The notes beneath the pieces were generated by a model. The model was not told the origin of the DNA and searched no databases. It saw only the letters and a program-made list of their open reading frames with translations. A stretch of DNA of 64,000 bases. Origin: Kitasatospora albolonga (GTDB lineage: Bacteria; Actinomycetota; Actinomycetes; Streptomycetales; Streptomycetaceae). How positions within the stretch are numbered: the first letter of the stretch is position 1; each line of letters begins with the position of its first letter. A program made the translations under genes and the position numbers. The stretch spans positions 6,442,001 to 6,506,000 of the forward strand of contig CP020563.1 of NCBI GenBank assembly GCA_002082585.1, in the 5' to 3' direction. Below, in pieces: positions 2,151 through 63,938 of this stretch.

Positions 2151-2269
2151 TCCGTAGCTAATTTGCGCTGCTCGGCCCCTTGGTCCGGACCTACAGGGCA
2201 GGCAGCGGCCCCTTCAAGGCGCCGAGACCGGTCCCCGCGCCCCGACCGCTCACCCGAGGAAGGCCCCCG

Positions 2270-3397: not shown

Positions 3398-3403
3398 CAG
3401 GCA

Positions 3404-3435
3404 GCGGCCCGGAGGCATGAACACCTCCGGGCCGC
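3404..3435. terminator. Hairpin terminator after cobW-like gene
   Basis: Perfect 12-bp stem (3404-3415 with 3424-3435) and 8-nt loop, starting 6 nt after the stop codon; no T-tract. It lies between convergent genes. Confidence 0.75.
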
Positions 3436-3438
3436 TCC

Positions 3439-3510
3439 CGACCGTACGGAACGGGCCCTGCCCTCGACCGTACGGAACAGAGCCTGCCCCCGACCGTACG
3501 GAACAGGGGC
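3439..3510. repeat. 26-bp tandem repeat, three copies
   Basis: Units beginning CGACCGTACGGAAC start at 3439, 3465 and 3491, an exact 26-bp period, and fill the space up to the parC stop codon. Copies differ by a few bases. No spacers, so not CRISPR. Confidence 0.85.
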
Positions 3511-14800: not shown

Positions 14801-14837
14801 CCGCCCCAGGGCGTCCCCGGCAGTCACCGGCCCCCCG

Positions 14838-46009: not shown

Positions 46010-49000
46010 ATGGGAATCGGCGACTTCATCAAGGACATCACGCCCGACGCGGTAGAGGACGCGGTCGAGGACGGCGTCGAGTGGGTCGGGGACCGGGTCG
46101 AGGACGCGGGGAACTGGACCGCCGACCGGCTGGACGACGCCGGGTGGGAGTCCGGTGCGGACTGGGTGCGTGAGCAGTCCCGTTCGGTCGCCAACCGGAT
46201 GGGCGCCGAGGTCGACGAGATGGACCTCGGGCAGACCGAGGACAGGACCAAGCTGGTCTACGGGAGTCCGGAGAAGATCCGCTCCACGGCCAAGCAGCTC
46301 CGCGCCTTCCAGCAGTCCTTCGACAACGCCGGTGAAGGTCTCAAGGGCCTGGACTCGTCCCGGCTCAAGGGTGAGGCAGCCGAGGCGTTGCGGGCCGCCG
46401 TGCGCACCCAGCCGCCCAAGTGGTTCACCGGCGCCGACGCCTGCGAGAAGGCGGCCGCCGCGCTGGAGGGTTTCGCCTCCACCGTCACCTGGGCGCAGGG
46501 GCAGGCACAGACGGCGATCGACAAGTGGAAGGAGGGCGTCAAGGCATCCGAGGACGCCGCCGATGCCCACCGCAAGAAGGTCGACGCTTACAACAGCGCG
46601 GTGGATCGCTACAACGCTCAGCCCGCCGACGAGCGCAACCCTTCCACCCTCCCGCCCCGTCCCGCCTCGACGTTCGCCGACCCCGGCATGAAGCTGATGC
46701 GGGAGGCGCAGGAGATCCTTGCCGAGGCCCGTAAGCAGCGGAACACGGCCGCGGAGACCGCGCGCACCGCAGTCCGCGCCGCCCGCGACGAGGCCCCGGA
46801 GAAACCCTCGTACGCCCAGCAGTTGGGTGACGGGGTCCAGGAACTGCGGTACATGGGCGACCACATCGGCGGCGGCGCCGTCAAGGGCACCGCGGGGCTG
46901 CTGAACTTCGTGCGCCAGGTCAACCCCCTGGATGCGTACAACATCACGCACCCGGCCGAGTACGTCACCTCCCTCAACAGCCTGGCCGCAGGGCTGGTGG
47001 TCGCCGCCAACGACCCGGTGGGCACCGGCAAGCAGATGATCAGCGACTTCATGAAGGACCCGTACGAGGGCTTCGGCCGCCTGCTGCCCGACGCCGCGCT
47101 GACTGTGGCCACCGGCGGGGGCGGCGCGGCGGTGAAGGGCGTACGCGTCGTCAAGGAGGCCGCCGACGCCGCGAAGGCCCGCAGGCTGGTCGACGACTCC
47201 CCGGACGGCACCCACAACACCCCGGACGGCGACCGCGACGCCGGGGGCGACCCGGTGGACTTTGCCACGGGCCGGATGTACCTCCCCCAGACCGATGTCG
47301 AGCTGCCCGGCATCCTGCCGCTGGTCTTCACCCGCCGCACCGAGTCCGGTTGCGCGGTCGGCCGGTTCCTTGGGCCCGCCTGGACGTCCACCGTCGATGA
47401 GCGGCTGGAGATCGACGCCATCGGCGTCGTCCACGTCACCGCCGAAGGGCTCCTCGTCCCCTACCCGCACCCGGTGCCCGGCGCCCCCACCCGGCCGGAG
47501 ACGGGCCGGGCCCGTACCCTGCTGGCCCGCGACGCCCACGGCGACTACACGGTCACCGACCCCGACAGCGGCCTGGTCTTCCACTTCACCGCCCCGTACG
47601 GCAGCGGGCCGGGCGGTGACGGCGACGCCTGGCTGTCCGGGATCAGCGAACGCAACGGCCACTCCCTCACCGTCGACCGTGCCGAGGACGGCCTGCCGCT
47701 GGCGCTGGTCCACTCGTCGGGCCGACAGGTGCGGCTTTCGTCCGCCGACGGCCTGGTCACCGCGCTGTCCCTGACCGGTGCAGGGGAGGGCGGCGCGGAC
47801 CTGCCCCTGATGAACTACGGCTATCAGGACGGCAACCTCACCACCGTCACCAGGCCCTCCGGCGCCACCACCACCTTCGTCTACGACGACCGCCGCCGTG
47901 TCATCGCCTGGATCGACTCGAACAACAGCCGCTACGACTACGTCTACGACGACCGCGACCGTGTCGTGGCGGAGGGCGGCGAGGCAGGCCACGTACAGAT
48001 CACTCTCGCCTACACCGACCCGGACCCCGAGACCGGCCACCACGTCACCACCGTCACCACCGCCGACGGGCACACGGCCCGCCACCTGTTCGGCCCCGGC
48101 TGCCGTCTCCTGGCCATCACCGACCCGCTCGGCCACACCACCCGGTTCGCCCACGACCCGCGCGGCAACCTCCTGAGCCGTACCGACCCGCTGGGCCTCA
48201 CCACCGTCTTCTCCTACGACGAGCACGACCGTCTCATATCCGCCACCCGCCCCGACGGAAGCGAACTGCGCACCGTACGCGGCCCGTTCGGCCTTCCGGT
48301 GGAAGTCCTCGGGCCCGACGGCGCCCGTACGGTCCACGAGTTCGACGAGCACGGCAACCGTACGGCGGTCACCGATCCGGCGGGCGCGACCACCCGTTAC
48401 ACCTACGACCGCTCCGGTCGGCTCACCTCCGTCACCGACGCCCTCGGGGCCACGGCACACGTGGTGTGCGACGCGGCGGGGCTGCCCGTCGAGGTGACCG
48501 GTCCGGCCGGGGCCACCACCCGCACGGAGCGCGACGCCCTGGGCCGCCCGGTCCGCGTCACCGACCCGGTGGGAGGGGTCACGCACCTGGAGTGGAACGC
48601 CGACGGCCTCCTCGCCCGCCGTACGGGCCCCGACGGCGCCACGGAGTCATGGACCTACGACGGCGAGGGCAACCGGCTCACCCACACCGACGCGTCTGGT
48701 GGCGTCTCCCGCTTCGAGTACACCCACTTCGACCTGCCCCTCGCCCGTGTCCAGCCCGACGGCGTGCGCTACGAGTTCGAGCACGACGCCGAGCTGCGCC
48801 TCACCCGCGTCATCAACCCGCAGGGGCTGACCTGGACCTACACGTACGACGCCGCGGGCAACACCGTCTCCGAGACCGACTTCGACGGCCGCACCCTCAC
48901 CTACCGGGTGGACCCCGCAGGCCGGCTCGCCGCCCGCACCGACGCGCTCGGCGGAACGATCTCGTTCGAGCGTGACCGGCTCGGCCAGGTGATCCGCAAG

Positions 49001-50773
49001 GATGTCGACGGCCAGGTGACGGCGTACGCCTACGACAAGGCCGGACGCCTGCTGGAGGCGGCCGGACCGGACGGCGAACTCCGGTACCAGTACGACCGCC
49101 GCGGCCTCACCAAGACGGAACTGGTCGACGGCCGCCCCATCGTGTACGCGTACGACGTCCTGGGCCGCCGTACGCGCCGCACCACACCCACCGGCCATGT
49201 CACCTCTTACGCCTACGATGACAGCGGACAGGCTCACCGCCTCACCACCGGTGACCGGCGCATCGACTTCACGTACGACGCCGCCGGACGCGAACTGGCC
49301 CGCGCCCTCGGTGACACGATCACCATGACCTCCGCCCGCGACGAGGCCGGAAGGCTCTCCGAGCAGCACATCACCGCCGCAGGACGCACCGTCAACAGCC
49401 GCGCCTACTCCTACCGCGCCGACGGCCAGCTGACCTCCGTCGCTGACCGGCTGACGGGCACTCGCACCTTCGACCTTGACGGGGCGGGCCGCGTCACCGC
49501 CGTCCACGCCAAAGGCTGGACGGAGCGGTACGCCTACGACGACGCCGGCAACCAGACCTCGGCGTCCTGGCCGTCCGGCCACCCCGGCCATGAAGCCACC
49601 GGGCCACGCACCTACACCGGCACCACCGTCACCCGGGCCGGCGATGTGCGCTTCGAGCACGACGCCCTCGGCCGGGTGATCCTGCGTCGGAAGGCCCGCC
49701 TCTCCCGCAAGCCCGACATCTGGCGCTACACATGGGACACGGAGAACCGCCTCACCTCCGTGACCACCCCCGACGGGACCCGGTGGAGGTACCGCTACGA
49801 CCCGCTGGGCCGACGCACCGCGAAGCAGCGCATGGCGGACGACGGTGAGAGCGTGGTCGAGGAGGTCCGGTTCACCTGGGACGGCCTAACCCTGTGCGAA
49901 CAGACCAGCCACGGACCCGACCAGTTGAGCACGGTCGCCCTGACCTGGGACCACCGCGGCCACACCCCCCTGGCCCAGACCGAGCGCCTCCTCACCGCCG
50001 ACGATCGGCAGAACGAGATCGACCGCCGCTTCTTCGCCATCGCCAGCGACCTCATCGGCACTCCCACCGAACTGGTCGACGAATCCGGCGACATCGCCTG
50101 GCGCTCCCGAGCCACGTTGTGGGGCACCACGGCATGGGCCCGCGACGGCAGCACCTATACCCCTCTCCGCTTCCCGGGCCAGTACTACGACCCTGAGACC
50201 GGCCTCCACTACAACTACCTCCGGCACTACGACCCGGAGACCGGCCGCTACACCTCCCCCGACCCCCTCGGCCTCGCTCCCGCCCCGAACCCCGTCAGCT
50301 ACGTGGACAACCCGAACACCGAGTCGGACCCGCTGGGGCTCATGCCCAAATACCCGAAGGAGGAGAAAGCACAGAGGCGGATCGACAAGGTTCTGGACGG
50401 GATCGCAGAGAGGGCAGAGAACGGTGAGATCAACAAGCATCCCAAGTACCACGGGGACACCCGACATGCCTTCACCGACGAACGGGTCCTGGACATCCTG
50501 AAGAACCCCGATGCTGTGTACCACTCGTCGGGCACGGCAGGTAACTTCATCTTCCGGAAGGACAACGACATCGTCGTGGCCTACGGGCCCGGCTCCAAGC
50601 AGGGCCAGGCCATCACGGCGTACGGAGAGTCGGGTATCAAGGGTGACTCCGGCGCGCAGGCGCTCGGTGGCAAACCGACGGATCCCGGTAGGCCGGTTAC
50701 CCATGAGGACATCGTGGAGGGCAGGATTCCGACCGATGGCGGCTACTTGGCCCCAGCACAGCAAATCAGATGA
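46010..50773 (+). CDS. Rhs/YD-repeat polymorphic toxin with type VII-like N-terminus
   Basis: 1587 residues. Order: helical T7SS-signal-like N-terminus (1-300; GVEWVGDRVEDAGNW and LXG/WXG-like helices), short hydrophobic segment, DUF6531 start GDPVDFATGRMYLPQTDVELPG-type region near 413, about 800 residues of YD repeats (for example YDYVYDDRDRVV), the Rhs core (YYDPETGLHYNYLRHYDPE near 1392) with DPLGL twice, and a variable tip from about 1444 to the end (about 144 residues). The shell encapsulates the tip, which is released at the DPLGL site in known Rhs proteins. The tip DNA is A-richer than the shell, as expected for an exchanged toxin domain. Confidence 0.9.
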   Translation: MGIGDFIKDITPDAVEDAVEDGVEWVGDRVEDAGNWTADRLDDAGWESGADWVREQSRSVANRMGAEVDEMDLGQTEDRTKLVYGSPEKIRSTAKQLRAFQQSFDNAGEGLKGLDSSRLKGEAAEALRAAVRTQPPKWFTGADACEKAAAALEGFASTVTWAQGQAQTAIDKWKEGVKASEDAADAHRKKVDAYNSAVDRYNAQPADERNPSTLPPRPASTFADPGMKLMREAQEILAEARKQRNTAAETARTAVRAARDEAPEKPSYAQQLGDGVQELRYMGDHIGGGAVKGTAGLLNFVRQVNPLDAYNITHPAEYVTSLNSLAAGLVVAANDPVGTGKQMISDFMKDPYEGFGRLLPDAALTVATGGGGAAVKGVRVVKEAADAAKARRLVDDSPDGTHNTPDGDRDAGGDPVDFATGRMYLPQTDVELPGILPLVFTRRTESGCAVGRFLGPAWTSTVDERLEIDAIGVVHVTAEGLLVPYPHPVPGAPTRPETGRARTLLARDAHGDYTVTDPDSGLVFHFTAPYGSGPGGDGDAWLSGISERNGHSLTVDRAEDGLPLALVHSSGRQVRLSSADGLVTALSLTGAGEGGADLPLMNYGYQDGNLTTVTRPSGATTTFVYDDRRRVIAWIDSNNSRYDYVYDDRDRVVAEGGEAGHVQITLAYTDPDPETGHHVTTVTTADGHTARHLFGPGCRLLAITDPLGHTTRFAHDPRGNLLSRTDPLGLTTVFSYDEHDRLISATRPDGSELRTVRGPFGLPVEVLGPDGARTVHEFDEHGNRTAVTDPAGATTRYTYDRSGRLTSVTDALGATAHVVCDAAGLPVEVTGPAGATTRTERDALGRPVRVTDPVGGVTHLEWNADGLLARRTGPDGATESWTYDGEGNRLTHTDASGGVSRFEYTHFDLPLARVQPDGVRYEFEHDAELRLTRVINPQGLTWTYTYDAAGNTVSETDFDGRTLTYRVDPAGRLAARTDALGGTISFERDRLGQVIRKDVDGQVTAYAYDKAGRLLEAAGPDGELRYQYDRRGLTKTELVDGRPIVYAYDVLGRRTRRTTPTGHVTSYAYDDSGQAHRLTTGDRRIDFTYDAAGRELARALGDTITMTSARDEAGRLSEQHITAAGRTVNSRAYSYRADGQLTSVADRLTGTRTFDLDGAGRVTAVHAKGWTERYAYDDAGNQTSASWPSGHPGHEATGPRTYTGTTVTRAGDVRFEHDALGRVILRRKARLSRKPDIWRYTWDTENRLTSVTTPDGTRWRYRYDPLGRRTAKQRMADDGESVVEEVRFTWDGLTLCEQTSHGPDQLSTVALTWDHRGHTPLAQTERLLTADDRQNEIDRRFFAIASDLIGTPTELVDESGDIAWRSRATLWGTTAWARDGSTYTPLRFPGQYYDPETGLHYNYLRHYDPETGRYTSPDPLGLAPAPNPVSYVDNPNTESDPLGLMPKYPKEEKAQRRIDKVLDGIAERAENGEINKHPKYHGDTRHAFTDERVLDILKNPDAVYHSSGTAGNFIFRKDNDIVVAYGPGSKQGQAITAYGESGIKGDSGAQALGGKPTDPGRPVTHEDIVEGRIPTDGGYLAPAQQIR
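50341..50773 (+). other. C-terminal toxin tip of Rhs protein (uncharacterised)
   Basis: About 144 residues after the DPLGLMP hinge. Shows KYHGDTRHAFTDERVLDILKN and FIFRKDNDIVVAYGPGS then ITAYGESG. This His...Arg...strand-strand pattern recalls the BECR fold (DUF4258-like RNases), but I cannot match it to a named toxin family. Confidence 0.45.
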
Positions 50774-51928: not shown

Positions 51929-53290
51929 TCAACCGGTGGGCGGTCGGCGGTACATGTCGGCCAGGCGGAAGGCCAGGTCGATCGACTGCTCCTGGTTGAG
52001 TCTCGGATCGCATGCCGACTCGTAACGCCTTCCGAGGTCCTGCGCGCCTACCGGGCGGCCGCCCCCGAGGCACTCCGTGACCTCGCTCCCGGTCAGCTCG
52101 ACATGGATGCCTCCCGGGTGGGTGCCCAGGGCCCGGTGGACCGCCATGAATCCGCTCAGCTCGTCCAGGATCGTCTCCACGTGGCGGGTCTTGTAGCCGT
52201 CCGGCGTGGTGAAGGTGTTCCCGTGCATGGGATCGGACAGCCAGCACACCTGGGCGCCCTCGGCGGAGACCTTCTCGACGAGGAGCGGCAGTACGTCACG
52301 CACCCGGTCCGCGCCTGCCCGCATCACGAAGGTCAGACGGCCGGGCTCCCTGTCGGGGTCGAGTCGGTCCAGATAGCGGAGCACGGTCTCGGGGCCCACC
52401 GTCGGGCCGAGTTTGACCGCGATGGGGTTCCGGACCCGGGAAAGGAATGCGATGTGGGCGCCGTCCGCCTCCCGGGTGCGTTCGCCCGCCCACAGCAGAT
52501 GCCCGCTGGTGGCGTACAGCCGTCCCGTCCGCTCGTCCACCCGGGTCAGCGGAGTCTCGTAGTCGAGCAGCAGGGCCTCATGGCTGACGAAGAACTCGGT
52601 GGTCGCGAGCGGGGCCGTATCGCCGCCGCAGGCTCGCAGAAAGGCCAGCGCACTCTCGATCTCGTCGGTCAGCCGTCGGTAGCGTTCGCCCGCGGGCGAC
52701 GAGGCGACGAACTCCCGGTTCCACGTGCGGACCTCGGCCAGGTCCGCGAAACCGCCGGTGGTGAGCGCGCGGACAAGATTCAGGGTGGCCGCCGACGCCT
52801 CGTACGCGCGGTTCAGCCGGGAGGCGTCCGGTGTCCGGGAACCGCTGGAGAACTCCAGCCCGTTGACGGCGTCCCCCCGATAGGACGGGAGCCGGACACC
52901 GCCCCGTTCCTCGAAGGCGGTGGACCGCGGCTTGGCGAACTGGCCCGCCATGCGGCCGATCTTGACCACGGGCAGCGAAGAGGCATGGGTCAGGACGACC
53001 GCCATGTGGAGCAGAGTCCGCAGGGTGGCGCGCACCGTGTCCGCGCCGACCCCGGAGAAGGTCTCCGCGCAGTCCCCGCCCTGCAGGACCAGTGCCTCGC
53101 CCCGCGCGACCGCCGCCAGACGGCGGGTCAGCAGATCGCACTCGGCCGGCAGGACCAGCGGAGGTGAACCCGCCAACTTCCGGCCCGCTGCCCGGAGCGC
53201 GTCCGGGTCCGGCCAGTCCGGCTGCTGCGCGGCCGGCAGCCCGAGCCAGGGGGCCGTGGAAAGGCCGCCGTCAGCGGCTTCTGCGGTCAT
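51929..53290 (-). CDS. Class II DAHP synthase
   Basis: 453-residue 3-deoxy-D-arabino-heptulosonate 7-phosphate synthase, the first step of the shikimate pathway (PEP plus erythrose 4-phosphate). Signature LVLQGGDCAETF, MAVVLTHASSLPVVKIGRMAG, and C-terminal metal-binding WLSDPMHGN and TGGVHVE-like GGIHVELTGS are present. Type II enzymes in secondary clusters are usually insensitive to feedback. ATG 53290 is preferred; GTG 53329 lacks a good ribosome site. Its end is 17 nt from the 51-bp repeat, and it diverges from trpE. Confidence 0.92.
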   Translation of the reverse strand: MTAEAADGGLSTAPWLGLPAAQQPDWPDPDALRAAGRKLAGSPPLVLPAECDLLTRRLAAVARGEALVLQGGDCAETFSGVGADTVRATLRTLLHMAVVLTHASSLPVVKIGRMAGQFAKPRSTAFEERGGVRLPSYRGDAVNGLEFSSGSRTPDASRLNRAYEASAATLNLVRALTTGGFADLAEVRTWNREFVASSPAGERYRRLTDEIESALAFLRACGGDTAPLATTEFFVSHEALLLDYETPLTRVDERTGRLYATSGHLLWAGERTREADGAHIAFLSRVRNPIAVKLGPTVGPETVLRYLDRLDPDREPGRLTFVMRAGADRVRDVLPLLVEKVSAEGAQVCWLSDPMHGNTFTTPDGYKTRHVETILDELSGFMAVHRALGTHPGGIHVELTGSEVTECLGGGRPVGAQDLGRRYESACDPRLNQEQSIDLAFRLADMYRRPPTG

Positions 53291-53544
53291 CTCGGAATTC
53301 CACCCGTTCTCGCTCGTACCGAACACCAATGCCCGAGCGTGAACCTCTCGTGTGCTCCGGGCTTTTCCCCTGCCAACTTCAATTCGCGGCGCGGGGCCGC
53401 GTCAAGCGATTCGGGATTGGTCCGCTTCAGCCGTTCCCGATTGGTCTGGTGCCGGCCCGGGCCCGCCTGGTTCGCTGGGGGAGGCGACGTGGAGTGAAGC
53501 GTGGCCGTGAGACCCATCGCAGATAAACGACAGGGGAATTCTTC
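53291..53544. other. Divergent promoter region DAHP synthase / trpE
   Basis: 254 bp with two direct repeats of an 11-bp box (53414-53424 and 53438-53448) exactly 24 bp apart, described as operators below. Confidence 0.7.
53414..53448. promoter_or_regulatory. Candidate MocR operator, trpE promoter
   Basis: GGATTGGTCCG at 53414-53424 and CGATTGGTCTG at 53438-53448 start 24 bp apart; 97 bp to the trpE start codon. The same kind of pair occurs before trpD. Confidence 0.6.
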
Positions 53545-55095
53545 ATGGTGGGTAATGTTCCGCTTCCGGTCACGGTGACCCGTACCGAATTGGCACCGCA
53601 CGACCCGCTCGACCTCTACTCGGCGCTGCGCCGCACCCTGCCTGCCGACGGGGTGTTCCTCTTCGAGAGCGTCGAGGGAGCCGACGAGGACCGGCGTTTC
53701 GCGGTTGTCGGATTCGGCCGCCTCGCGGAACTCCGGGTCTTCGGGGGTGACGGCCGGGCCGGGCGCATCGAGGCGGAAGGGCCGCCCGTGCTCGTGAGGG
53801 CGATCGAGGCGGAGGCGCGACGGGCGGGCCTGACCGTGGCCGGACCCGAGGGGGCACCGCCGGGCCCCGGAACGGCAGCCATGGAATTCGTCGGCAACGA
53901 CGCCCTGTGGACCGTACTGGACTCGGTGCGGGGGCTGTTCACCGTCGAGACCGATGTGCCACGGACCACGTACGCCTTCGGGTTCCTCTCCTCCTTCGCC
54001 TACGAGTCGATGTGGAACATGGACACGCCGGGGCGGCGGACGAAGCCGTCCCAGGCGCCCGACATCACGCTCACCCTCTTCCGGGACACCCTCTGGTACG
54101 ACCTGGGAACGGGCGCCGTCCGCCTGCACCACGCGGCGAGCCCGGCCTTCACCGACCCGGCCGGGCCACCCGCCGACGCGCTCCCCGACGTCCGGGCCCT
54201 GGCCGAGGAGGCCGCCCGCGCCGACGGCCCTCGCCCGGAGATGCCGAGCGCGCCGCGGCCGCACTGGGTGCGCGACAGTGTGGACCGGGACACGTTCCTG
54301 CAGTGGGCCGACCGCTGCCTGGAGCACATCAGGGCCGGGGACATCTACCAGATCCAGATCGGACACCGGCTGGACGTGCGGACCGACTTGGCGCCCGAGG
54401 ACGTCTACCGGCGGTTGCGCCGACGCAATCCCTCGCCCTACATGTACGTGATGCCGAGTGCCGGGCAGTTGCTCATCGGCGCGAGTCCCGAGCTGTTCCT
54501 CCGGATCGAGGACGACACGATCGTCATGCGGCCCATCGCCGGAACGGCCCGCCGGGGCCCGGACGACGAGGAGAACCAGCGGCGGATCAAGGAGATGCGC
54601 GAGAGCACCAAGGAACAGGCCGAACACATCATGCTGGTGGACCTCTGCCGGAATGACATCGGCAGGGTCAGCCGCCCCTCCACCCGGCCGGTCGACGAGC
54701 TGATGGCGGTGGAGACGTTCTCCCATGTCTTCCACCTGGTGTCGACGGTCAGCGGCCGCCTCAGGAGCGGGACCAGCCCGCTGGACGCCGTACGGGCCAC
54801 CTTCCCGGCCGGGACGATGACGGGAGCCCCGAAGCTGCGTGCCATGGAGATCATCGACAGTCTGGAGCAGGAGCCGAGGGGCAGCTACGCCGGTGCCGTC
54901 GGGCTGATGGACGTCCGTGGCTGGACCGAACTCGCCCTGTGCATCCGGACGATCGTCCACGACGGGACGGTCTACTCCACCCAGAGCTCGGCGGGCATGG
55001 TCGCCCAGTCCCGGCCCGCGGACGAGTGGCAGGAGACGCTGGCGAAGATGGGAGCGGCCCACTGGGCCCTGACCGGTGAGGAGTTGCTGTCATGA
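53545..55095 (+). CDS. trpE: Anthranilate synthase component I
   Basis: 516-residue chorismate-utilising subunit; with TrpG it makes anthranilate. The PIAGT signature (MRPIAGTARRG near 330) points to anthranilate rather than aminodeoxychorismate synthase (PIKGT). HIMLVDLCRNDIG, TFPAGTMTGAPK and NPSPYMYVMPS are in place. A tryptophan-site-like triad FES at 40-42 (E. coli LLES) is kept, so feedback inhibition by tryptophan may persist. AGGGGAA site before ATG 53545. trpG overlaps by 4 nt. Confidence 0.93.
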   Translation: MVGNVPLPVTVTRTELAPHDPLDLYSALRRTLPADGVFLFESVEGADEDRRFAVVGFGRLAELRVFGGDGRAGRIEAEGPPVLVRAIEAEARRAGLTVAGPEGAPPGPGTAAMEFVGNDALWTVLDSVRGLFTVETDVPRTTYAFGFLSSFAYESMWNMDTPGRRTKPSQAPDITLTLFRDTLWYDLGTGAVRLHHAASPAFTDPAGPPADALPDVRALAEEAARADGPRPEMPSAPRPHWVRDSVDRDTFLQWADRCLEHIRAGDIYQIQIGHRLDVRTDLAPEDVYRRLRRRNPSPYMYVMPSAGQLLIGASPELFLRIEDDTIVMRPIAGTARRGPDDEENQRRIKEMRESTKEQAEHIMLVDLCRNDIGRVSRPSTRPVDELMAVETFSHVFHLVSTVSGRLRSGTSPLDAVRATFPAGTMTGAPKLRAMEIIDSLEQEPRGSYAGAVGLMDVRGWTELALCIRTIVHDGTVYSTQSSAGMVAQSRPADEWQETLAKMGAAHWALTGEELLS

Positions 55096-55736
55096 AGGTG
55101 CTGTTGATCGACGCGTACGACAGCTTCGTGCACATCATCGACCAGTACGTGCAGACCCTGGGCGCCGAGACGACCGTCGTACGCTCCCGTACGCGGACCC
55201 CCGCCGAACTCGCCGCGCTGGAACCGGACGCCGTCGTCCTCGGTCCCGGCCCCGGTCATCCCGCGGACTCCGGACACGTCGAGCTGGTGCACCACTTCTC
55301 CGGCGTGGTGCCCGTGCTCGGTGTCTGCCTCGGCCATCAGGCCATCGCCCTCGCCCACGGCGGCACGGTCGAGCGGGCCGAGCAGGTCATGCACGGCAGG
55401 GTCAGCGCCGTCCGGCACGACGGTGCCGGAGTGTTCCAGGGGCTCGGCAACACCCTGGAGGCGACCCGCTATCACTCCTTGATCGTCGGGGACCCGCTGC
55501 CCGAGGAACTGGTGACGACCGCGGTCTCCGTCGACCACGGATACGTGATGGGCCTGCGTCACCGCACGCTGCCCGTCGAGGGCGTGCAGTTCCACCCGGA
55601 GAGCATTCTGACGACGGGCGGGCTCCAGCTCTTCCGTAACTTCCTGGGATTCGCACAGGGCGCCGACGTACGATCCCGTCCGGACGTGAACATCGCGGAA
55701 CCCCGGCCGGACGTCACCGCGGTCACCTCCCGCTGA
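55092..55736 (+). CDS. trpG: Anthranilate synthase component II (glutamine amidotransferase)
   Basis: 214-residue class I amidotransferase that supplies ammonia to TrpE. Catalytic Cys in GVCLGHQ, and His/Glu in VQFHPESI. ATGA overlap with trpE ensures equal expression. Its 3' end overlaps the convergent MocR gene by 14 nt; the last ~25 residues extend past the usual end. Confidence 0.93.
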   Translation: MKVLLIDAYDSFVHIIDQYVQTLGAETTVVRSRTRTPAELAALEPDAVVLGPGPGHPADSGHVELVHHFSGVVPVLGVCLGHQAIALAHGGTVERAEQVMHGRVSAVRHDGAGVFQGLGNTLEATRYHSLIVGDPLPEELVTTAVSVDHGYVMGLRHRTLPVEGVQFHPESILTTGGLQLFRNFLGFAQGADVRSRPDVNIAEPRPDVTAVTSR

Positions 55737-57114
55737 GTGCGGCCCCCACCTCCCGGACGGCCTCCGTCACACCGGACTTGGGGAGATGCGCGAAGCCGAC
55801 CACCAGGCCGGCGTCGCCGGGGCGGGGGAGAGCGCGATAGCCGCCCCCGCCCCGGACCAGCACCGAGCGACGCAGCGCGCCGCCGACCACGGCCGTCTCG
55901 TCGGTGTGGGGCGGCAGCCGTACATAGGCGTGGACCCCGGCGGCGGAGCCCAGCACCGCGGCGCCGGGCAGATGACGGCGCACCGCCTCGTCCAGGGCGC
56001 TCCGTCGGGCCGCACAGGTCTCCGTGAGCCTGCGCAGATGCCGGTCGAAGAGGCCGCTGCCCAGGAACTCCGCGAAGGCCGCCTGGGTGAACGCGTCCGT
56101 GCCCAGGTCCTGGCGGCCACGCAGACGCAGCAGCCGGTGGAGCAGCTGTTCCGGTCCGGCCAGCCACCCCAGCCGCAGCCCCGCCCCCAGCACCTTGCTC
56201 GCCGTCCCCGCGTAGACCACATGGTCGGGAGCGAGCCGCTGGAGGGCGAGGGGGCGCGCCGCCCGGTCGTACCAGAGGGCCCCGTCGTAATCGTCCTCGA
56301 TCACCAGCCCGTCCACGTCCCGCGCCCAACGGGCCAATGCTTCCCGACGGGACGCGGAGAGCGTGTACCCGACGGGGAACTGGTGCGCCGGAGTCACCAG
56401 CACGGCCCGCGCGGAGGTGGCCGCGAGCGCTTCCACATCGATCCCCTCGGCGTCCACCGGCACCGGGACCGGCCGCAGTCCGTTCTCCGCGACGAAGTGG
56501 CGCTGCCCGGGGTGCCCGGGCTCCTCCACGGCCAGCTCCCGCTGTCCCGACGCGACCAGGTCGGCGCAGAGCAGGCTCAGCCCCTGGGCGAAACCGGCCG
56601 TCACCATCACCTGGGACGGAGTGGCGCGCACACCCCGTAACCGTCCCAGATGACGGGAGAGTTCGGACCGCAGCTCGGGCACGCCGGCGAGCGGCGGATA
56701 GCCGTCCGGCACCGCCCCGGGCGACCGCAGCACCCGCTGGTACGCGGTGAGCCACTCCTTGTGCGGAAAGGCCGGAGCTCCCTGCCCCGAGACCCGCAGG
56801 TCCCAGCGGGCGACCGGAACGTCCGAGGAGTCCAGCAGGCACGGCACGACGGGCTCGCGGGGCAGGTGGCGGACCACGCGCGTGCCCGCGCCCCGCGCGG
56901 CTTCCAGGAACCCCTCGGCCACCAACTGCCCGTACGCCTCCACCACCACGCTGCGGGAGACCCCGAGGTCCGCGGCCAGTTGGCGGCTGGAGGGCAGACG
57001 GGTACCGGGCTGAAGAATTCCCCCTTCGATCTCTTCGCATATCGACGTTCTTATCTGCGCATTCAGGGACTGTTCCGCTGAGCGGGAAATCGCGACCGAC
57101 AGATGCAGGGGCAT
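55723..57114 (-). CDS. MocR-type (GntR/aminotransferase) regulator
   Basis: 463-residue regulator joining an N-terminal GntR winged helix (about 15-85; LPSSRQLAADLGVSRSVVVE) to a fold-type I aminotransferase-like domain. The PLP lysine is in AGTASKVLGAGLRLG near 300 and the Asp/Tyr pocket in VIEDDYDG, so PLP binding is likely. GAGGAGGAGCGG precedes ATG 57114. Divergent from trpD and convergent with trpG, it is well placed to control the cluster. Regulators of this class bind direct-repeat sites, which are found in both nearby promoters. Effector probably an amino acid or amine. Confidence 0.9.
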   Translation of the reverse strand: MPLHLSVAISRSAEQSLNAQIRTSICEEIEGGILQPGTRLPSSRQLAADLGVSRSVVVEAYGQLVAEGFLEAARGAGTRVVRHLPREPVVPCLLDSSDVPVARWDLRVSGQGAPAFPHKEWLTAYQRVLRSPGAVPDGYPPLAGVPELRSELSRHLGRLRGVRATPSQVMVTAGFAQGLSLLCADLVASGQRELAVEEPGHPGQRHFVAENGLRPVPVPVDAEGIDVEALAATSARAVLVTPAHQFPVGYTLSASRREALARWARDVDGLVIEDDYDGALWYDRAARPLALQRLAPDHVVYAGTASKVLGAGLRLGWLAGPEQLLHRLLRLRGRQDLGTDAFTQAAFAEFLGSGLFDRHLRRLTETCAARRSALDEAVRRHLPGAAVLGSAAGVHAYVRLPPHTDETAVVGGALRRSVLVRGGGGYRALPRPGDAGLVVGFAHLPKSGVTEAVREVGAALSGR

Positions 57115-57264: not shown

Positions 57265-58329
57265 ATGTCCGCGAAACCGCCAGAACTCCGTTGGCCCGCT
57301 CTGATCAACACCCTGGTGGCAGGCCGGGACCTGACCTCCGACGAGGCGGCTCTGGCGATGGAGGACATCATGACGGGGGCCGTCGGCGGCCCCCGTCTCG
57401 CGGGATTCCTGATGGCGCTGCGGTGCAAGGGCGAGACGGTCCAGGAGATGGAAGGGCTGACCCGCACCATGCGGGCGCACGCGGTGCCGCTGCGGATACC
57501 GGGCCCCACCCTGGACATCGTCGGCACCGGTGGCGACGGCTCGGACAGCGTGAACATCTCCACCATGTCGGCGATCGTGGCCGCCGGGGCCGGGGCACGG
57601 GTCGTCAAGCACGGGAACCGTTCAGCCTCCTCGCAGTGCGGTTCGGCGGACGTGCTCGAGGAGCTGGGGGTCACGCTCGATCTGCCGCCCTCGTCGGTCG
57701 AGGCCGTCGCCCTGGACACCGGGATCACCTTCTGTTTCGCTCCCGCCTTCCACCCCGCGATGCGCCACGCCGCCCCGACCCGAAGGGAACTGGGCGTGCG
57801 CACGGCGTTCAACCTGCTGGGCCCGCTCTCGAACCCGGCGTCCCCCACGGCACTGGCAGTCGGGGTGGCCGATGCCGATGCCGCGCCCCTGATCGCCGGT
57901 GTGCTGGCCCGCCAGGGCGTGTCGGCACTCGTCTTCCGGGGCGACGACGGGATGGACGAGCTGACGGTCACCACATCCTCCACGGTCTGGTCGGTCGGCG
58001 ACGACGCCGTGCACCAGGAGGTCTTCGACCCCCGCGAGCTGGGAATCCCCCTCGCCGCACCGGACGCGCTGCGCGGCGGCGACCGGAGACACAACGCCCG
58101 GATCGCACGGGAACTGCTGGCCGGAGCACGCGGGCCGGTACGGGACGCGGTCCTGCTCTCCGCCGCCGCCGCGCTGGCAGCCGCGACACCGGTCGCGGGG
58201 CGGAGCCGGGTGGCCGAACGTATCGCCGCCGAACTGCCCCGAGCGGCCGAGGCCATCGACACCGGTGCGGCGGCCGACGTACTGGAGCGCTGGGCCGCGG
58301 TGAGCACCAAACACGCCGCAGGCGGCTGA
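57265..58329 (+). CDS. trpD: Anthranilate phosphoribosyltransferase
   Basis: 354-residue enzyme attaching phosphoribosyl to anthranilate. Motifs [35 protein letters not shown] and [14 protein letters not shown] (here LSNPA, the usual x position being variable) cover the PRPP and anthranilate sites. ATG 57265 with GGAAAGGAAA upstream. Convergent with trpC, which ends 96 nt away across a terminator hairpin. Confidence 0.93.
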
Positions 58330-58425: not shown

Positions 58426-59235
58426 TCAGCGAGATCCGGGGCACCCGGCACGGCTGCCCGCCGCGATCAGCCCGGCCACGGCAGCACGCGGGTCACCGCT
58501 GGTCACCAGGGACTCACCGACCAGCACCGCGTCCGCCGACGCCTCCCGGAGCCGGGCCGCGTCGGCCGGCGACGCGATACCCGACTCGGCGACCCGCACC
58601 ACATCGGCCGGTATCCGCGGGGCGAGCCGGCCGAACACCGTGGGGTCCACCTCCAGCGTCCGCAGATCCCGTGCGTTCACCCCGATGACCCGGGCCCCGG
58701 CGGCCAGCGCCCGGTCCACCTCCGCTTCGTCGTGCACCTCCACCAGCGGGGTGAGCCCCGCATCCGAGGCCACGGCCAGCAGATCCGTCAGCCGCGCCCC
58801 GTCCAGCGCCGCCACGATCAGCAGGACGAGGTCGGCCCCGTGGGCCCGCGCCTCCCACAGCTGGTACGGCTCCACGACGAAGTCCTTGCACAGCACCGGC
58901 ACCGACACCCGCGCCCGTACGGCGGCCAGGTCCTCGACCGAACCGCCGAAACGGCGTCGTTCGGTCAGCACGCTCACCGCGGTGGCACCGCCCGCCTCGA
59001 ACTCCACCGCCAGAGCGCCCGGGTCGGTGATCGGGGCGAGGGCGCCCCTGGAAGGGCTGGCCCGTTTCACCTCCGCGATGACATGCAGGCGCCCCTTCAC
59101 CCCGAGCAGCTCAGCCGCCGGGAGCGGCGGGGACGCGGCCGCGGCCAGCTCCCGCATCTCCCGCTCGGGGAGAGCCGCACGCCGTCCGGTGAGTTCGGCC
59201 CGCACCCCTTCGATGATCCCGTCGAGTACGGTCAT
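58426..59235 (-). CDS. trpC: Indole-3-glycerol phosphate synthase
   Basis: 269-residue TIM-barrel enzyme that closes the indole ring. Catalytic residues sit in [11 protein letters not shown] (Lys), PVLCKDFVV (Lys), and the C-terminal [15 protein letters not shown] phosphate site. ATG 59235 overlaps the stop of the FAD oxidase gene by 4 nt, making it the last gene of the minus-strand operon. trpA and trpB are not present, so the product must use the housekeeping tryptophan synthase or an indole branch. Confidence 0.93.
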
Positions 59236-60863
59236 CGCCTGCCTCCTCGGAGGCCGGGCAGCTCCACCGAGAGCGCGTGCCGGAACACGTCCCGTGGGTC
59301 CCAGCGCTTCTTGACCTGCTGGAGCCGGGGGTAGTTGCCGCCGTAGTAGAGCTCCTGCCATCCGGTGCGGGACCGGTTGCGGGAGGTGTCGCGCAGGTCA
59401 ATGTCCGGGTAGTTGATGTAGGCGCCCCCGGTGGAGGCGCCGGGAACCGGCACCCCGCCGGTCGGCGCGTACACGTCCTCGTACAGGTCCCGGAGAAAGG
59501 CGATGTGCCGCTCGTCCTCGGCCGGGTCGGTCCACTCGCTGATGTACATCAGCATCAGGGCGCTGTCCCGGTGGACCAGCGCCGTCGCGTCCGCCGCCAC
59601 GGTGTTGACCTGCCCCCCGTAAGGCGCGATCAGCACACCGCTGCCCGGGTGCGCGTAGTCGGTGCGGGTCAGGTGCCGGTACAGCGCGGCGGTCTGAGGC
59701 GCGTCGAACGTCCGCCGGTGGTAGGCGGACTTGCCCTTGATCCGCTTGCCGGTGGGCCGGTCGGCGAAGCCCGCCCACTGCGTGGACAGGAGCCACGGGA
59801 ACCGGCCGCGTTCCACCGTCTTCGGCGCGACGCCCACCCCCCGGCCCACCTCCGCGAGGAACCGCTCCAGCCGCCGTTCAGGATTCCCGCGTTGCGTGGA
59901 CAGCTGCACGTTCAGCGCCACCGCGCCCCCGGAGCGGTGGAAGACGGCGAGATGGCTGTAGAGATCGCTTTCGGGATCGCCCGCTCCGTTGTGGGCGACG
60001 TGCCAGGCACCGTAGTTGCGCAGCAGGCGGCTGAACGAGGACTCGTCCAGGGCGTCCCACGGCCAGACCACGCTGCTGACGAGCAACTCCTTCGGAGGGA
60101 CGGGCAGGAGCCGGCCGGCATCGGCACCCGCCGCACCGGGAGAACGGAACCAGTAACGGGTCACCACACCGAAGTTGCCTCCGCCACCGCCGGTGTGCGC
60201 CCACCACAGATCCCGTCGCGGATCGTTCTTGTCACGGGTGGCGATCACCGCCCGTGCCCTGCCCGAGCTGTCGACCACGACGACCTCCACGGCGAGCAGA
60301 TGATCGACCGTCAGGCCGTGGAGCCGGTTCAGGGGGCCGTAGCCGCCCCCGCTGATATGACCACCGATGCCCACCGTCGGGCAGGCACCCGCCGGGAGCG
60401 CGACGCCCCAGCGTTTGAAGAGCTGCTCGTTGACCTGGCCCAGCCGCGCGCCCGCACCCACGGCCAGGGCACGCCGCCGTGGGTCGTGTTCGACGGAGTC
60501 CAGGGCGGACAGGTCGATCACGGCGCGCACGCCCGGGCCCGACACGAAGTCCTCGAAGCAGTGCCCGCCGCTGCGCACCGCGATCCGGCGGCCCGAGTCG
60601 ACCGCCTTCTGCACGGCCGCCACGACCTGCTCGGTGGTGCGTGGCACCCTGATCCAGTCGGGGGTTCCGGCCCAGCGCCGGTTCACCCCCCGGGAGAGAT
60701 CCTCGTACTGCACGCTGCCGGGGACGACCGGAGGCCCGGCATCGGTGGCCGCAGGGCCCCGGCCCTGTGCCGAGGAGGCGGTGGCACCGGCGACACCGGT
60801 GGCCGAGGCCGCCCCCACCAGCGCGGTCGTGCCGAGGAACCGTCGCCGCGTCGTGGAGTTCAT
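59232..60863 (-). CDS. Tat-signal bicovalent FAD oxidase (BBE-like)
   Basis: 543-residue oxidase of the berberine-bridge/GOOX type. Twin-arginine leader [17 protein letters not shown] suggests export. FAD anchors: His101 in [10 protein letters not shown] and Cys161 in [15 protein letters not shown], i.e. bicovalent flavin. Ends with the BBE domain (YINYPD near 490; [18 protein letters not shown]). Related enzymes (TamL, AknOx type) perform late oxidation of alcohols or C-N/C-C bonds in natural product pathways. Overlaps trpC and the DsbA-like gene by 4 nt each. Confidence 0.9.
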
Positions 60864-61519
60864 TCCTGGTCCTTCCTGGTGGTGCCGGCCGTATCGGATG
60901 TGCGCGCGAGTGCGCTGCGGTACACCTCGGGGTCCTCCTGCGCCCCCTCGACGCGTCGCGCGCCGCCGAAGACGATCAGGGGGACCTGGGTGACGCCCGC
61001 GGACCGGGCCGCCCGGATCTCCTGGCGGACCTCGGCCAGCCCCTCGTCCGAAGCGAGCAGATCCGCGGCCCGTGCCCGGCCGAAGCCGGAGCGCACCGCG
61101 CGGTCCAGGAGCAGAGCCGGGTCCGAGACATCGCCGTTCTGCGTGAAGTAGGCCGCGAAGAGCAGCTCCTCGAGCCGGCTCTGCACGCTGCGGCCGTACT
61201 CACGGCCCGCGTACCACAGCATCCGGTGCGCCTGAAGCGTGTTCGCCGCCAAGCCCGTGCGATTGCGGAAGGCGATGCCGTGCCGGTTGCCGGCCTCGGT
61301 CACCTCCTTGCTCATCGTCTCGGCCGTCTCCCGCCCGTACTTGCCCGCCAGCCAGTCGAGCATCGGCATCGGCTCGGCCGGCCGCTCCCCGTCGATCTGG
61401 TACGGGTGCAGCACGATGTCGAGATCGTGACGGCCTGCCGCCGCCAGGCCCAGTTCGAAGGTGCGCTTGGTGATGTAGCACCACGGGCAGGAGATGTCCG
61501 ACCAGATGTCGACTCTCAT
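60860..61519 (-). CDS. FrnE/DsbA-family 2-carboxychromene isomerase-like oxidoreductase
   Basis: 219-residue thioredoxin-like DsbA protein. CPWC active site at 11-14 (WSDISCPWCYI), helical insertion, cis-Pro region TQVPLIVFGG. FrnE relatives are linked to polyketide clusters and disulfide chemistry. It has no signal peptide, so works in the cytoplasm. ATG 61519 overlaps the stop of the flavin monooxygenase gene (ATGA). Role in the pathway is not evident; it might also help fold the exported oxidase. Confidence 0.88.
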   Translation of the reverse strand: MRVDIWSDISCPWCYITKRTFELGLAAAGRHDLDIVLHPYQIDGERPAEPMPMLDWLAGKYGRETAETMSKEVTEAGNRHGIAFRNRTGLAANTLQAHRMLWYAGREYGRSVQSRLEELLFAAYFTQNGDVSDPALLLDRAVRSGFGRARAADLLASDEGLAEVRQEIRAARSAGVTQVPLIVFGGARRVEGAQEDPEVYRSALARTSDTAGTTRKDQE

Positions 61520-62790
61520 CGGTGAGCCCTCACTCCTGTCGCCGCGCCCGGCGGCATCGTCGTGTTCACGGCGTTCGGATCGAAGCCGCCCAGCCGCGCG
61601 AAGCCGGCCGAGATGTCCTCCAGTTCGGTGCCGGGGAAGACCTCCCGTACGTCGGAGAATCCGCCCGGCGCCCGCTCGTGCGCCAGATCGATCACGACCT
61701 CGGGCCCCCGCCTGCGCGTGCTGTGCTGGAGGCGGGTGAGCACCGGCAGCCGTTCGGCCTCGTACGCGGCGAACGCCTCGGTCACCCCGGCCCGGGCCAG
61801 ATGCCCCGCCAGCACCCGGGCGTCCACGATGGCCTGGGTCGCTCCGTTGGACCCCATCGGGTACATGGCGTGAGCGGCGTCGCCGATCAGGGTGACCGCC
61901 CCGTGGCTCCACCGGGGGAGAGGGTCGCGGTCGACCATGGGATAGACGTACGCCTCGGTCGCCGAACGGATCAGCGCGGGCACATCGAGCCAGTCGAAGG
62001 CCAGATCCTCGAAATGCCCGACGAAGGACTCCGGCGGCACGGACCGGTTCCAGTCCGCGGCCTCGAACTCGGCATCCGGCTCGGCAGCCTTGGCGACCGC
62101 CCAGTTCATCAGGGTCAGGCCGCGCTCGTCCGCCGCCGACATCGGGTAGACGACGGCACGGCGCCGGTCGTCACCGGCGATCACCATCGACCGGCCGTCC
62201 AGGAAGGGCGGCGCCCAGGCCGTGCCCCGCCAGACCACCAGACCGTTCCACGGCGGTGGCCCCTCGCCGGGGCCGAGCACCGCGCGGACCGCGGAGTGGA
62301 TGCCGTCGGCACCGATCAGTCCGGCCGCGTCGACCGTCGACACCGTGCCCGCCACCGGGTGACGAGCCATCACCCGCACGCCGCCGTCGGTGGGGACGAC
62401 ATCCACGACCCTGGTGTCGGTGACGACGGCGTCCGGCCCCAGTCGCTCGCGGACGGCCTCGGCCAGCACCGCCTGGAGCCGGCCGCGGTGGATGGAGAGC
62501 TGCGGCCATCGGTGGCCGGCGGCCCGGCCCCGCGGTTCACGCCAGATGAGCTGGCCGTGGCGGTTGTAGTAGCTCAGGTCGCCGGTGGCGACCGAGACTT
62601 CGGCGAGTCGCGACAGCAGGCCCAGCCCGTCGAGTTCCTTCACGGCGTTGGGAAGGATGTTCAGGCCGACGCCGAGCGGACGGATCTCGGGTACGGCCTC
62701 CAGGACGCGCACATCCCTGATGCCCTCGGCATGCAGGCTGAGGGCCGCGGTGAGACCGCCGATGCCACCACCGGCGACGAGGAGCGTCAC
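61516..62790 (-). CDS. FAD-dependent monooxygenase, PhzS-like
   Basis: 424-residue group A flavin hydroxylase. Rossmann motif LLVAGGGIGGLTAAL, SIRPLGVGLNILPNAV-like EIRPLGVGLNILPNAVKEL, the DG motif GADGIHSAVRA, and GDAAHAMYPMGSNGATQA. The arrangement closely resembles PhzS of Pseudomonas, which oxidatively decarboxylates and hydroxylates phenazine-1-carboxylate derivatives. GTG start overlaps the PrnB-like gene. Probably hydroxylates an aromatic, carboxylate-bearing intermediate. Confidence 0.9.
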   Translation of the reverse strand: MTLLVAGGGIGGLTAALSLHAEGIRDVRVLEAVPEIRPLGVGLNILPNAVKELDGLGLLSRLAEVSVATGDLSYYNRHGQLIWREPRGRAAGHRWPQLSIHRGRLQAVLAEAVRERLGPDAVVTDTRVVDVVPTDGGVRVMARHPVAGTVSTVDAAGLIGADGIHSAVRAVLGPGEGPPPWNGLVVWRGTAWAPPFLDGRSMVIAGDDRRRAVVYPMSAADERGLTLMNWAVAKAAEPDAEFEAADWNRSVPPESFVGHFEDLAFDWLDVPALIRSATEAYVYPMVDRDPLPRWSHGAVTLIGDAAHAMYPMGSNGATQAIVDARVLAGHLARAGVTEAFAAYEAERLPVLTRLQHSTRRRGPEVVIDLAHERAPGGFSDVREVFPGTELEDISAGFARLGGFDPNAVNTTMPPGAATGVRAHR

Positions 62791-63938
62791 GCGGTCCTCC
62801 CATGGGCGTACGCGGCCTCGCCCTTCGGCGCCTGGCCGTCGGGCGGCCGGTGGCCCTGGCGTGTGCCGGTGAGCCGGGCGGTGGCACGAGTCAGGTCGAT
62901 GATCTGCTTCAGCAGGTCGACACTGGCCCCGCCGCTGCCGACCGGGAAGAGGCGCAGGTCGGCGTCGTACGCCTTGCGCGCGATGCCCAGATGGCGGCCG
63001 CGGAACACGACGATCACCCGCAGCAGCCGGGCGAGCGCCTCGGCTCCGTCCCGGAGGTCGGGCATCCGGCGTTCGGCCTCGGCCGGGTCGTCCCCGTACG
63101 CCTCGACCAGCCGGGACACCACCGACGGCACCCGGGTCCAGTCCTCGTACAGTTCACGCCAGCGCGGCAGGCTGTACGGCACCGAGTCGCGGACGAACTC
63201 CTCGTACGAGGGCTCGCTGAGGTCCGATGCCCAGATGGCCTGGTCGATCAGCCACAGCGGGACCTGGGCCGCGGCCGGTCCCAGCAGGACCTCTCCCCCC
63301 ACGGTGATCTCGTCGAAGTAGGCGCGCAGTTCCCGGGCGAAGAACTCGGGTGTCACGTTGGCGACCACCATGCTGATGGAGGTCACCATGGTTTCCACAT
63401 GGTCGGTCAGCGCCTGCGTCAGCAGGGCGAACTTGGGGTCGTGGACCTCGGTCCGGCTGAGGATGGCGCACAGTTCGAGGCCCTCGCGCAGATGCGGGAA
63501 GACCATGCGGACCGATTCCTGGAGGTACGCCTCCTGCACATCACCGAGATACATGCGCTGACGGCCGCCCGTCGGGTTCCAGGTGCAGTAGTGGTGCACG
63601 ACGTCGCGCGGCACCATGTCGGTGCGGTGCCCCAGGATGCGCAGGACGGGCAGGACCTCGGGGACCAGCTCCAGCGGCTCCGGTCCGTGGCGCTTGATCG
63701 AGCCGAGGAACATCCCCAGGTCGCGCATGGCCGCGACGGACTGCTGCGGGTCGAATCCCTCGGCGGTGTCCAGACGCGGCACCAGCCTGCGCAGTTCGGC
63801 GGCCATGGCCGGGACGTCCGCGCGCGCGTTCTGCTCGCGCAGCACGAAGCAGGCTCGGTCGGCGGCCAGCGGGTCGAGTTCCCGGATGGCCGCCACGCGT
63901 ATGGAACTTCCCAGATCCAGGTCGGTGATCATTGTCAT
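62787..63938 (-). CDS. PrnB-like heme-dependent tryptophan-modifying enzyme
   Basis: 383-residue member of the PrnB/DUF1864 family of the tryptophan dioxygenase superfamily. Shared blocks with PrnB as I remember it: AAMRDLGMFLGSIKRHGPEP, TWNPTGG, ITVGGEVLLGPAAAQVPLW, and the candidate heme ligand His316 in VFRGRHLGIARKAY, near PrnB His313. PrnB turns 7-chlorotryptophan into an aminophenylpyrrole by ring rearrangement. ATG 63938 has GGAGAG upstream; longer readings to 63974 are less likely. First visible gene of the operon; its leader reaches the window edge. Confidence 0.85.
   Translation of the reverse strand: MTMITDLDLGSSIRVAAIRELDPLAADRACFVLREQNARADVPAMAAELRRLVPRLDTAEGFDPQQSVAAMRDLGMFLGSIKRHGPEPLELVPEVLPVLRILGHRTDMVPRDVVHHYCTWNPTGGRQRMYLGDVQEAYLQESVRMVFPHLREGLELCAILSRTEVHDPKFALLTQALTDHVETMVTSISMVVANVTPEFFARELRAYFDEITVGGEVLLGPAAAQVPLWLIDQAIWASDLSEPSYEEFVRDSVPYSLPRWRELYEDWTRVPSVVSRLVEAYGDDPAEAERRMPDLRDGAEALARLLRVIVVFRGRHLGIARKAYDADLRLFPVGSGGASVDLLKQIIDLTRATARLTGTRQGHRPPDGQAPKGEAAYAHGRTA

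Follow-up and report, generated by a model that had tools for sequence, protein, structure and literature searches.

A 16-gene cassette of Kitasatospora albolonga joining a PrnB-like heme enzyme to tryptophan-supply genes, a candidate natural-product cluster

Among the closest known relatives of the enzyme treated here are the PrnB proteins of the pyrrolnitrin operons (prnABCD), two of which, from Burkholderia pyrrocinia (L082) and Azotobacter salinestris (L083), were used for comparison. In the FbPrnB complexes described in the accessible part of PMC11791213, the amine of tryptophan sits on the heme iron and its carboxylate is held by Gly210, Gly211, Ser319 and a heme propionate, with Ser319 on a loop closing over the bound substrate. 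A PrnB homologue also occurs outside of pyrrolnitrin biosynthesis as PdnC of the paenidepsin cluster, which differs in being a nonribosomal peptide synthetase (NRPS) system and in the indole hydroxylation role assigned to the protein, speculatively according to its authors (PMC13036774, accessible part). The mansouramycin pathway of Streptomyces albus (albidoflavus) J1074/Del14, which is likewise tryptophan-derived and whose cluster is left unannotated by antiSMASH (PMC12690601, accessible part), can be compared with the present case at the level of its description. Here, we analyze a PrnB-like gene of Kitasatospora albolonga and the 16-gene cassette around it, which begins in a window of 64,000 nucleotides (the whole stretch analyzed, positions 6,442,001 to 6,506,000 of contig CP020563.1; G000:C1:6442001-6506000) of a single-contig genome of 8.03 Mb and continues into the right flank.

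The cassette spans about 20 kb, from an aroG-like gene at 51.9 kb of the window to an araC gene ending about 8.2 kb past its right end (Table 1). An earlier note made from the window had described five genes with overlapping starts and stops at 58426-63938, and all of them were found there, with their families matched by profiles and all four junctions on the minus strand overlapping by 4 nt, as judged from the ends of the open reading frames. The wording that this operon is fused to trpC holds as translational coupling, whereas a protein fusion is ruled out by the mere 4-nt overlaps. Reading the right flank, a check proposed in the same note, revealed that the operon continues with a ketosynthase (KS) gene coding for a protein like the Gln-type loading domains (KSQ) of polyketide synthases (PKS), followed by genes for an NmrA-like reductase, an MFS transporter, an HpaB-type hydroxylase and a second PhzS-like flavoprotein (FADmo2, the first one being FADmo1), so that the five genes represent the middle of the cassette. 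The end of the KS gene lies some 100 bp upstream from where the PrnB-like gene starts and just beyond the window; the statement that no NRPS or PKS is visible was thus correct inside the window and is ruled out for the whole cluster. Because the same gene order recurs in other Streptomyces at about 56-85% protein identity, the five-gene set is not a chance arrangement, and we regard it as practically certain that the 16 genes form a real gene cluster. In the following, loci with this cassette are called type A, and those with a six-gene core coding for NmrA, AraC, HpaB, MFS, PrnB-like and FADmo proteins are called type B.

The cassette shares with the pyrrolnitrin cluster a PrnB-family enzyme, the compact operon and the presumed tryptophan-type substrate, but it adds genes for tryptophan supply, the KSQ-like KS, HpaB, two PhzS-like flavoproteins and a BBE-like oxidase. 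Pfam scans of the 16 genes yielded no halogenase of the PrnA/PrnC kind over the cut-off (FADmo2 reached 20.5 bits with Trp_halogenase against a cut-off of 21) and no Rieske protein such as PrnD, which extends the same observation of the earlier note to the whole cassette and rules out that it is a pyrrolnitrin cluster. The PrnB-like protein itself belongs to family PF08933 with 134.8 bits against a curated cut-off of 27, and PrnB structures are its closest matches among solved proteins (2v7i, E 3.8e-60; 9dfg, E 3.7e-42). Its His316, suggested earlier as the candidate proximal ligand and correctly numbered from the ATG at 63938 (His328 from an upstream GTG), aligns with His313 of PfPrnB, and Tyr324 and Ser335 align with Tyr321 and Ser332. 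We take His313 of PfPrnB to be the proximal heme ligand and Tyr321 to lie near the substrate. All three residues are present in 7 of 7 aligned proteins from loci of types A and A' and in 15 of 15 from type B, and the 47 rows of the whole alignment, which was made without L103-L105, contain the His in 45, the Tyr in 41 and the Ser in 45 cases. Ser335 would correspond to Ser319 of FbPrnB, assuming that the deposited chain carries a 20-residue tag. The conserved residues support tryptophan binding rather than a particular reaction; tryptophan is likely to be the substrate, and an arylpyrrole intermediate is predicted tentatively, at somewhat less than even chance. A tree of 44 of the 47 rows (omitting the frame-broken L053, the decayed L064 and the long-branched L046) separated type A (support 100/99), type B (100/100, L040 included) and the pair of prn-cluster proteins (100/99) from each other and joined types A and A' with 94/91 support; because the tree program warned of long branches meeting near the prn rows, the placement of prn and of the root is uncertain.

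The link to tryptophan drawn in the earlier note is strengthened by the genes aroG, trpE, trpG, trpD and trpC in or beside the operon. The genome contains two matches each for class II 3-deoxy-D-arabino-heptulosonate 7-phosphate (DAHP) synthase and indole-3-glycerol phosphate synthase (trpC), three trpD-type proteins (PF00591) and five chorismate-binding proteins, the cassette copies always included, and one of the other chorismate-binding proteins is encoded close to the second trpC, which lies at 1.62 Mb. Because of these further matches, the cassette genes aroG, trpE, trpD and trpC represent additional copies. The association of aroG with trpE recurs in L006 (partial, as the locus ends there), L037, L038, L115 and L117. 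Since the supply genes stop at TrpC, and Pfam scans found no trpA or trpB family among the 16 genes, the enzyme might also use an indole or anthranilate intermediate from the TrpE, TrpG, TrpD and TrpC reactions instead of free tryptophan. We consider this very unlikely, as the Ser for carboxylate binding is conserved and the affinity of PrnB for tryptamine is about 100-fold lower than for tryptophan, according to the accessible part of PMC11791213.

Table 1. Genes of the cassette. Positions refer to the window or, with the prefix L003, to the right-flank locus, whose numbering equals the window numbering minus 62000.
Feature	Position	Strand	Profile evidence and remarks
aroG-like class II DAHP synthase	51929..53329	-	PF01474 E 3.7e-185; left edge of cassette
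trpE, anthranilate synthase component I	53545..55095	+	PF00425 E 2.3e-83; best NCBIfam TIGR00564, under its cut-off
trpG, anthranilate synthase glutamine amidotransferase	55092..55736	+	PF00117 E 2.9e-52; TIGR00566 over cut-off; overlaps trpE
MocR/PdxR-type regulator (GntR + aminotransferase fold)	55723..57114	-	PF00155, PF00392; NF052282 over cut-off; start taken at ATG ending 57114, NF052282 scan ran from 57051
trpD, anthranilate phosphoribosyltransferase	57265..58329	+	TIGR01245 E 1.9e-104, over cut-off
trpC, indole-3-glycerol phosphate synthase	58426..59235	-	NF001369 367.7 bits (cut-off 329); last gene of operon
Tat-type secreted bicovalent-FAD (BBE-like) oxidase	59232..60863	-	PF01565 + PF08031
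FrnE/DsbA-like thioredoxin-fold protein	60860..61519	-	PF01323 E 7.3e-29; CPWC motif
FADmo1, PhzS-like flavin monooxygenase	61516..62790	-	PF01494; NF005720 over cut-off
PrnB-like heme enzyme	62787..63938	-	PF08933 E 4.5e-39
Type I PKS-like ketosynthase, KSQ-like, 573 aa	L003:2040-3761	- (strand of PrnB-like gene)	right flank, outside window
NmrA-like reductase	L003:3845-4762	- (strand of PrnB-like gene)	right flank
MFS transporter	L003:4855-6309	- (strand of PrnB-like gene)	right flank
HpaB-type flavin hydroxylase	L003:6296-7798	- (strand of PrnB-like gene)	right flank
FADmo2, second PhzS-like flavoprotein	L003:7867-9249	- (strand of PrnB-like gene)	right flank
AraC regulator, divergent	L003:9284-10219	opposite strand to preceding genes	right flank

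The best solved relatives of FADmo1 are 2rgj and 3c96 (E 3e-87), which are labelled there as flavin-containing monooxygenases and which we take to be PhzS; the cassette is nevertheless no phz cluster, as Pfam scans of its 16 genes found no phenazine biosynthesis families. We surveyed the contexts of 46 loci, two of which (L047 and L048) contained no query match, and then of 7 more. The gene immediately behind the PrnB-like one is FADmo1 in 25 of the 44 loci with a match; in 16 of these, its nearest possible start and the PrnB stop share a 4-nt overlap, such a start is available further upstream in 2 more, and the start lies 13-89 nt past the stop in 6, the largest distance belonging to the decayed copy L064. 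The remaining one, L065, shows an in-frame read-through of both genes to a protein of 841 aa, which may be due to an assembly indel. A general PrnB-FADmo fusion was rejected, because the other 7 loci checked, 4 of them picked for long open frames, were unfused; further long frames, for example that of G908, lay outside of this check. The pair is also present in the 7 additionally examined loci. Because PrnB proper is inactive once purified and some cellular component is suspected to be missing (PMC11791213, accessible part), FADmo1 appears as a natural candidate partner of the PrnB-like enzyme.

In the KS, Gln184 replaces the catalytic Cys, whereas His320, Lys354 and His359 are kept. In KSQ loading domains, a Gln in place of the Cys is the mark of a decarboxylase. 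The combination of Gln with His/Lys/His was observed in 10 of 10 loci of types A and A' (7 and 3 in two rounds), and the plasmid relative L045 has a Cys. The protein resembles the GfsA-type loading ketosynthases (9jj9, 7vee) in its Gln nucleophile and the His/Lys/His set and matches GfsA with an E-value of about 1e-105, while CurL and 7zma score even higher; the native residue of GfsA is presumably Gln, although the printed 9jj9 chain has a Cys at this position. It differs from these loading ketosynthases by standing alone: a Pfam scan of its 573 aa detected neither an acyltransferase (AT) nor an acyl carrier protein (ACP) domain, as a loading module would contain. The BBE-like oxidase carries a putative twin-arginine (Tat) leader (RRRFLG) and candidate ligands for bicovalent flavin binding in His101 (SGGH) and Cys161 (GxCPTV), motifs which we presume to have these meanings. 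Its best solved relatives are the tailoring oxidases TamL, AknOx and CrmK (E 5e-176 to 6e-152), from which it differs by its Tat-type leader and its location in a tryptophan cluster.

PF08933 was matched in 42 of the 394 genomes sampled from the family; the PrnB-like protein itself had matches in 51 of 392 genomes sampled from the genus and in 1 of 396 from the phylum, namely that of the window. Named relatives, found with the PrnB-like query, are Streptomyces sp. SA15 (L005, 78%) and S. coelicoflavus NBRC 15399 (L006, 74%), in both of which the gene order is retained from AraC through trpE, and in L006 on into aroG. In total, nine loci are of type A (the window, L005, L006, L037, L038, L049, L103, L104 and L105); L037 and L038 lack the BBE gene, L049 (G393) lacks the BBE and trp genes, none of which occur further along either, and L104 stops with the contig end after mocR. 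The shorter relative L043 contains genes for AraC, NmrA, KS, PrnB-like, FADmo1, FrnE and BBE proteins, but no match to HpaB, MFS or FADmo2 before its contig ends after BBE. Past AraC and aroG, comparison of the outer flanks of the window, G098, G238, G393, G853 and G937 detected no common homologues at more than 45% identity and 60% coverage, except in the close pair G098/G238, and these sharp edges give the cassette the look of a horizontally acquired element. A cytochrome P450 gene just past araC (L003:10386-11645, minus strand) probably lies outside of the cassette, because a comparison of the flanks past araC with those of five relatives detected no homologues in common. On the other side, a protein of 1587 aa (window 46010-50773) with a T7SS-type signal domain, DUF6531 and RHS repeats has the look of a polymorphic toxin.

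The type B core was present in 15 of the 394 family genomes, with the 7 later loci adding three further cases and one cut by a contig end; its six genes show about 49-70% identity to those of the cassette, but the KSQ, FrnE, BBE and FADmo2 genes and all trp and aroG genes are missing. In L041, it lies between genes for glgE-like (2079-4076) and glycogen-phosphorylase-like (12235-14820) proteins, and open reading frames resembling these in size flank L039 and L044. Apparently decaying copies are L040, where the PrnB-like gene is the sole survivor of the core, the frame-broken L053, and L064, which lacks HpaB and MFS and has Pro in the His column and Gly in the Ser column. PrnB-like genes were also found with FADmo and a methyltransferase (L052), with FADmo (L059) and in the neighborhood of methyltransferase genes (L067, L071). 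In Streptomyces sp. NBC_01717, a plasmid-borne PrnB-like gene is accompanied by FADmo, a KS of the Cys type and a gene for a phosphopantetheine-binding protein; the region after these three genes (L045:19021-20435) contains a frame that looks like a KASIII by eye and the small protein annotated as phosphopantetheine-binding. Two type A genomes, G098 and G238, lack BBE alone, and in both we observed, adjoining araC, a gene for an IDO/cytochrome b5 protein of 611-623 aa (L037:432-2303, minus strand; L110:1691-3526, plus strand), whose IDO match spans only about the first half of the profile and which may be an extra tryptophan-oxidizing enzyme with a built-in electron donor.

Our overall explanation, to which we give almost an even chance, is a self-supplying tryptophan natural-product cluster in which remodelling by the PrnB-like enzyme is followed by oxidations. 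Gene content and order, conservation, active-site residues and the additional supply genes were observed, and the substrate, the reactions, their order, the product and the roles of the KSQ, FrnE and NmrA proteins are inferred. AroG, TrpE, TrpG, TrpD and TrpC would push flux to indole-3-glycerol phosphate, and chromosomal TrpB and TrpA would presumably complete tryptophan. The PrnB-like enzyme would bind tryptophan via the conserved PrnB site and rebuild it oxidatively, most likely to an intermediate of the 3-(2-aminophenyl)pyrrole type, which the coupled FADmo1 would take over at once. HpaB may then add an ortho-hydroxyl group, while NmrA and FADmo2 may tune the oxidation state. The stand-alone KSQ-like protein could act as a decarboxylase, with either a malonyl carrier as substrate, giving an acetyl-type acyl group, or a thioester of the pathway. 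The MFS protein would export the product, the Tat-secreted oxidase would perform the final oxidation outside of the cytoplasm, and the AraC and MocR proteins would provide regulation. A halogen-free arylpyrrole is a plausible predicted product. The more specific prediction of a class of halogen-free oxidized arylpyrrole or pyrroloquinoline-like alkaloids, made by a PrnB-like enzyme with an obligatory flavoprotein partner and a KSQ adding or removing carbon by decarboxylation, is rather unlikely to be correct in full.

Several observations weigh against this explanation. Because purified PrnB proper is inactive, conserved residues cannot certify the reaction, and the enzyme of the window shares only about 35% identity with the PrnBs of prn clusters, falls into a separate clade and carries a Tyr at a position occupied by Val in the two prn-cluster rows, although FbPrnB also has Tyr there. 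A predicted fold model built from three sequences reached a mean pLDDT of only 43.8. No FADmo1 match was found in 19 of the 44 PrnB-like loci, showing that the pair is not universal and speaking against a general need for FADmo1; no ACP or AT for the KSQ was detected among the 16 genes; and the BBE gene is missing in 2 of the 9 type A loci, a third (G393) lacking it together with the trp genes. In addition, the PrnB homologue of the paenidepsin cluster has been proposed, speculatively, to hydroxylate tryptophan, and the heme-dependent tryptophan 5-hydroxylase Luz15 is cited in the same source (PMC13036774, accessible part). The enzyme may accordingly hydroxylate or dioxygenate tryptophan, with the flavoproteins and HpaB yielding an aminophenol, catechol or quinone instead of an arylpyrrole. 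Further points in this direction are that IDO, TDO and MarE belong to the same superfamily (PMC11791213 and PMC11904535, accessible parts), that mansouramycin provides a Streptomyces case of a tryptophan-derived quinone precursor (PMC12690601, accessible part), that phenols are substrates of HpaB relatives, and that the IDO/cytochrome b5 gene adjoins araC in two related loci. Because PrnB is the closest of the solved proteins, its His/Tyr/Ser set is retained and Pfam scans of the 16 genes found no kynureninase or formamidase families, we regard such an oxidation as somewhat unlikely and still prefer PrnB-like remodelling; the interpretation given in the earlier note is partly supported overall.

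Relatives occur in named public strains, and our coverage extended neither to MIBiG nor to most of the subscription literature; a paper or MIBiG entry beyond it may already describe the cluster and its product. We consider this distinctly unlikely, as no description was found in the literature searched, the accessible parts of PMC11791213, PMC12690601, PMC13036774, PMC12892944, PMC11904535 and PMC11943599 do not describe such a cluster, and 'PrnB family protein' is the only annotation that the plasmid relatives carry. On the literature searched, the cluster may be new. A link to marinoquinoline was considered and dropped, because no paper containing both 'marinoquinoline' and 'PrnB' was found in the literature searched.

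If our explanation is correct, the cassette would make a class of tryptophan-derived products for which we found no description in the literature searched, and it would contain a KSQ-like protein working outside of any PKS module. An obligatory flavoprotein partner would be the kind of missing cellular component needed for PrnB chemistry in vitro, and FADmo1, which is translationally coupled to the PrnB-like gene in this Streptomyces family and in one case was read as one protein with it, offers a concrete candidate to test.

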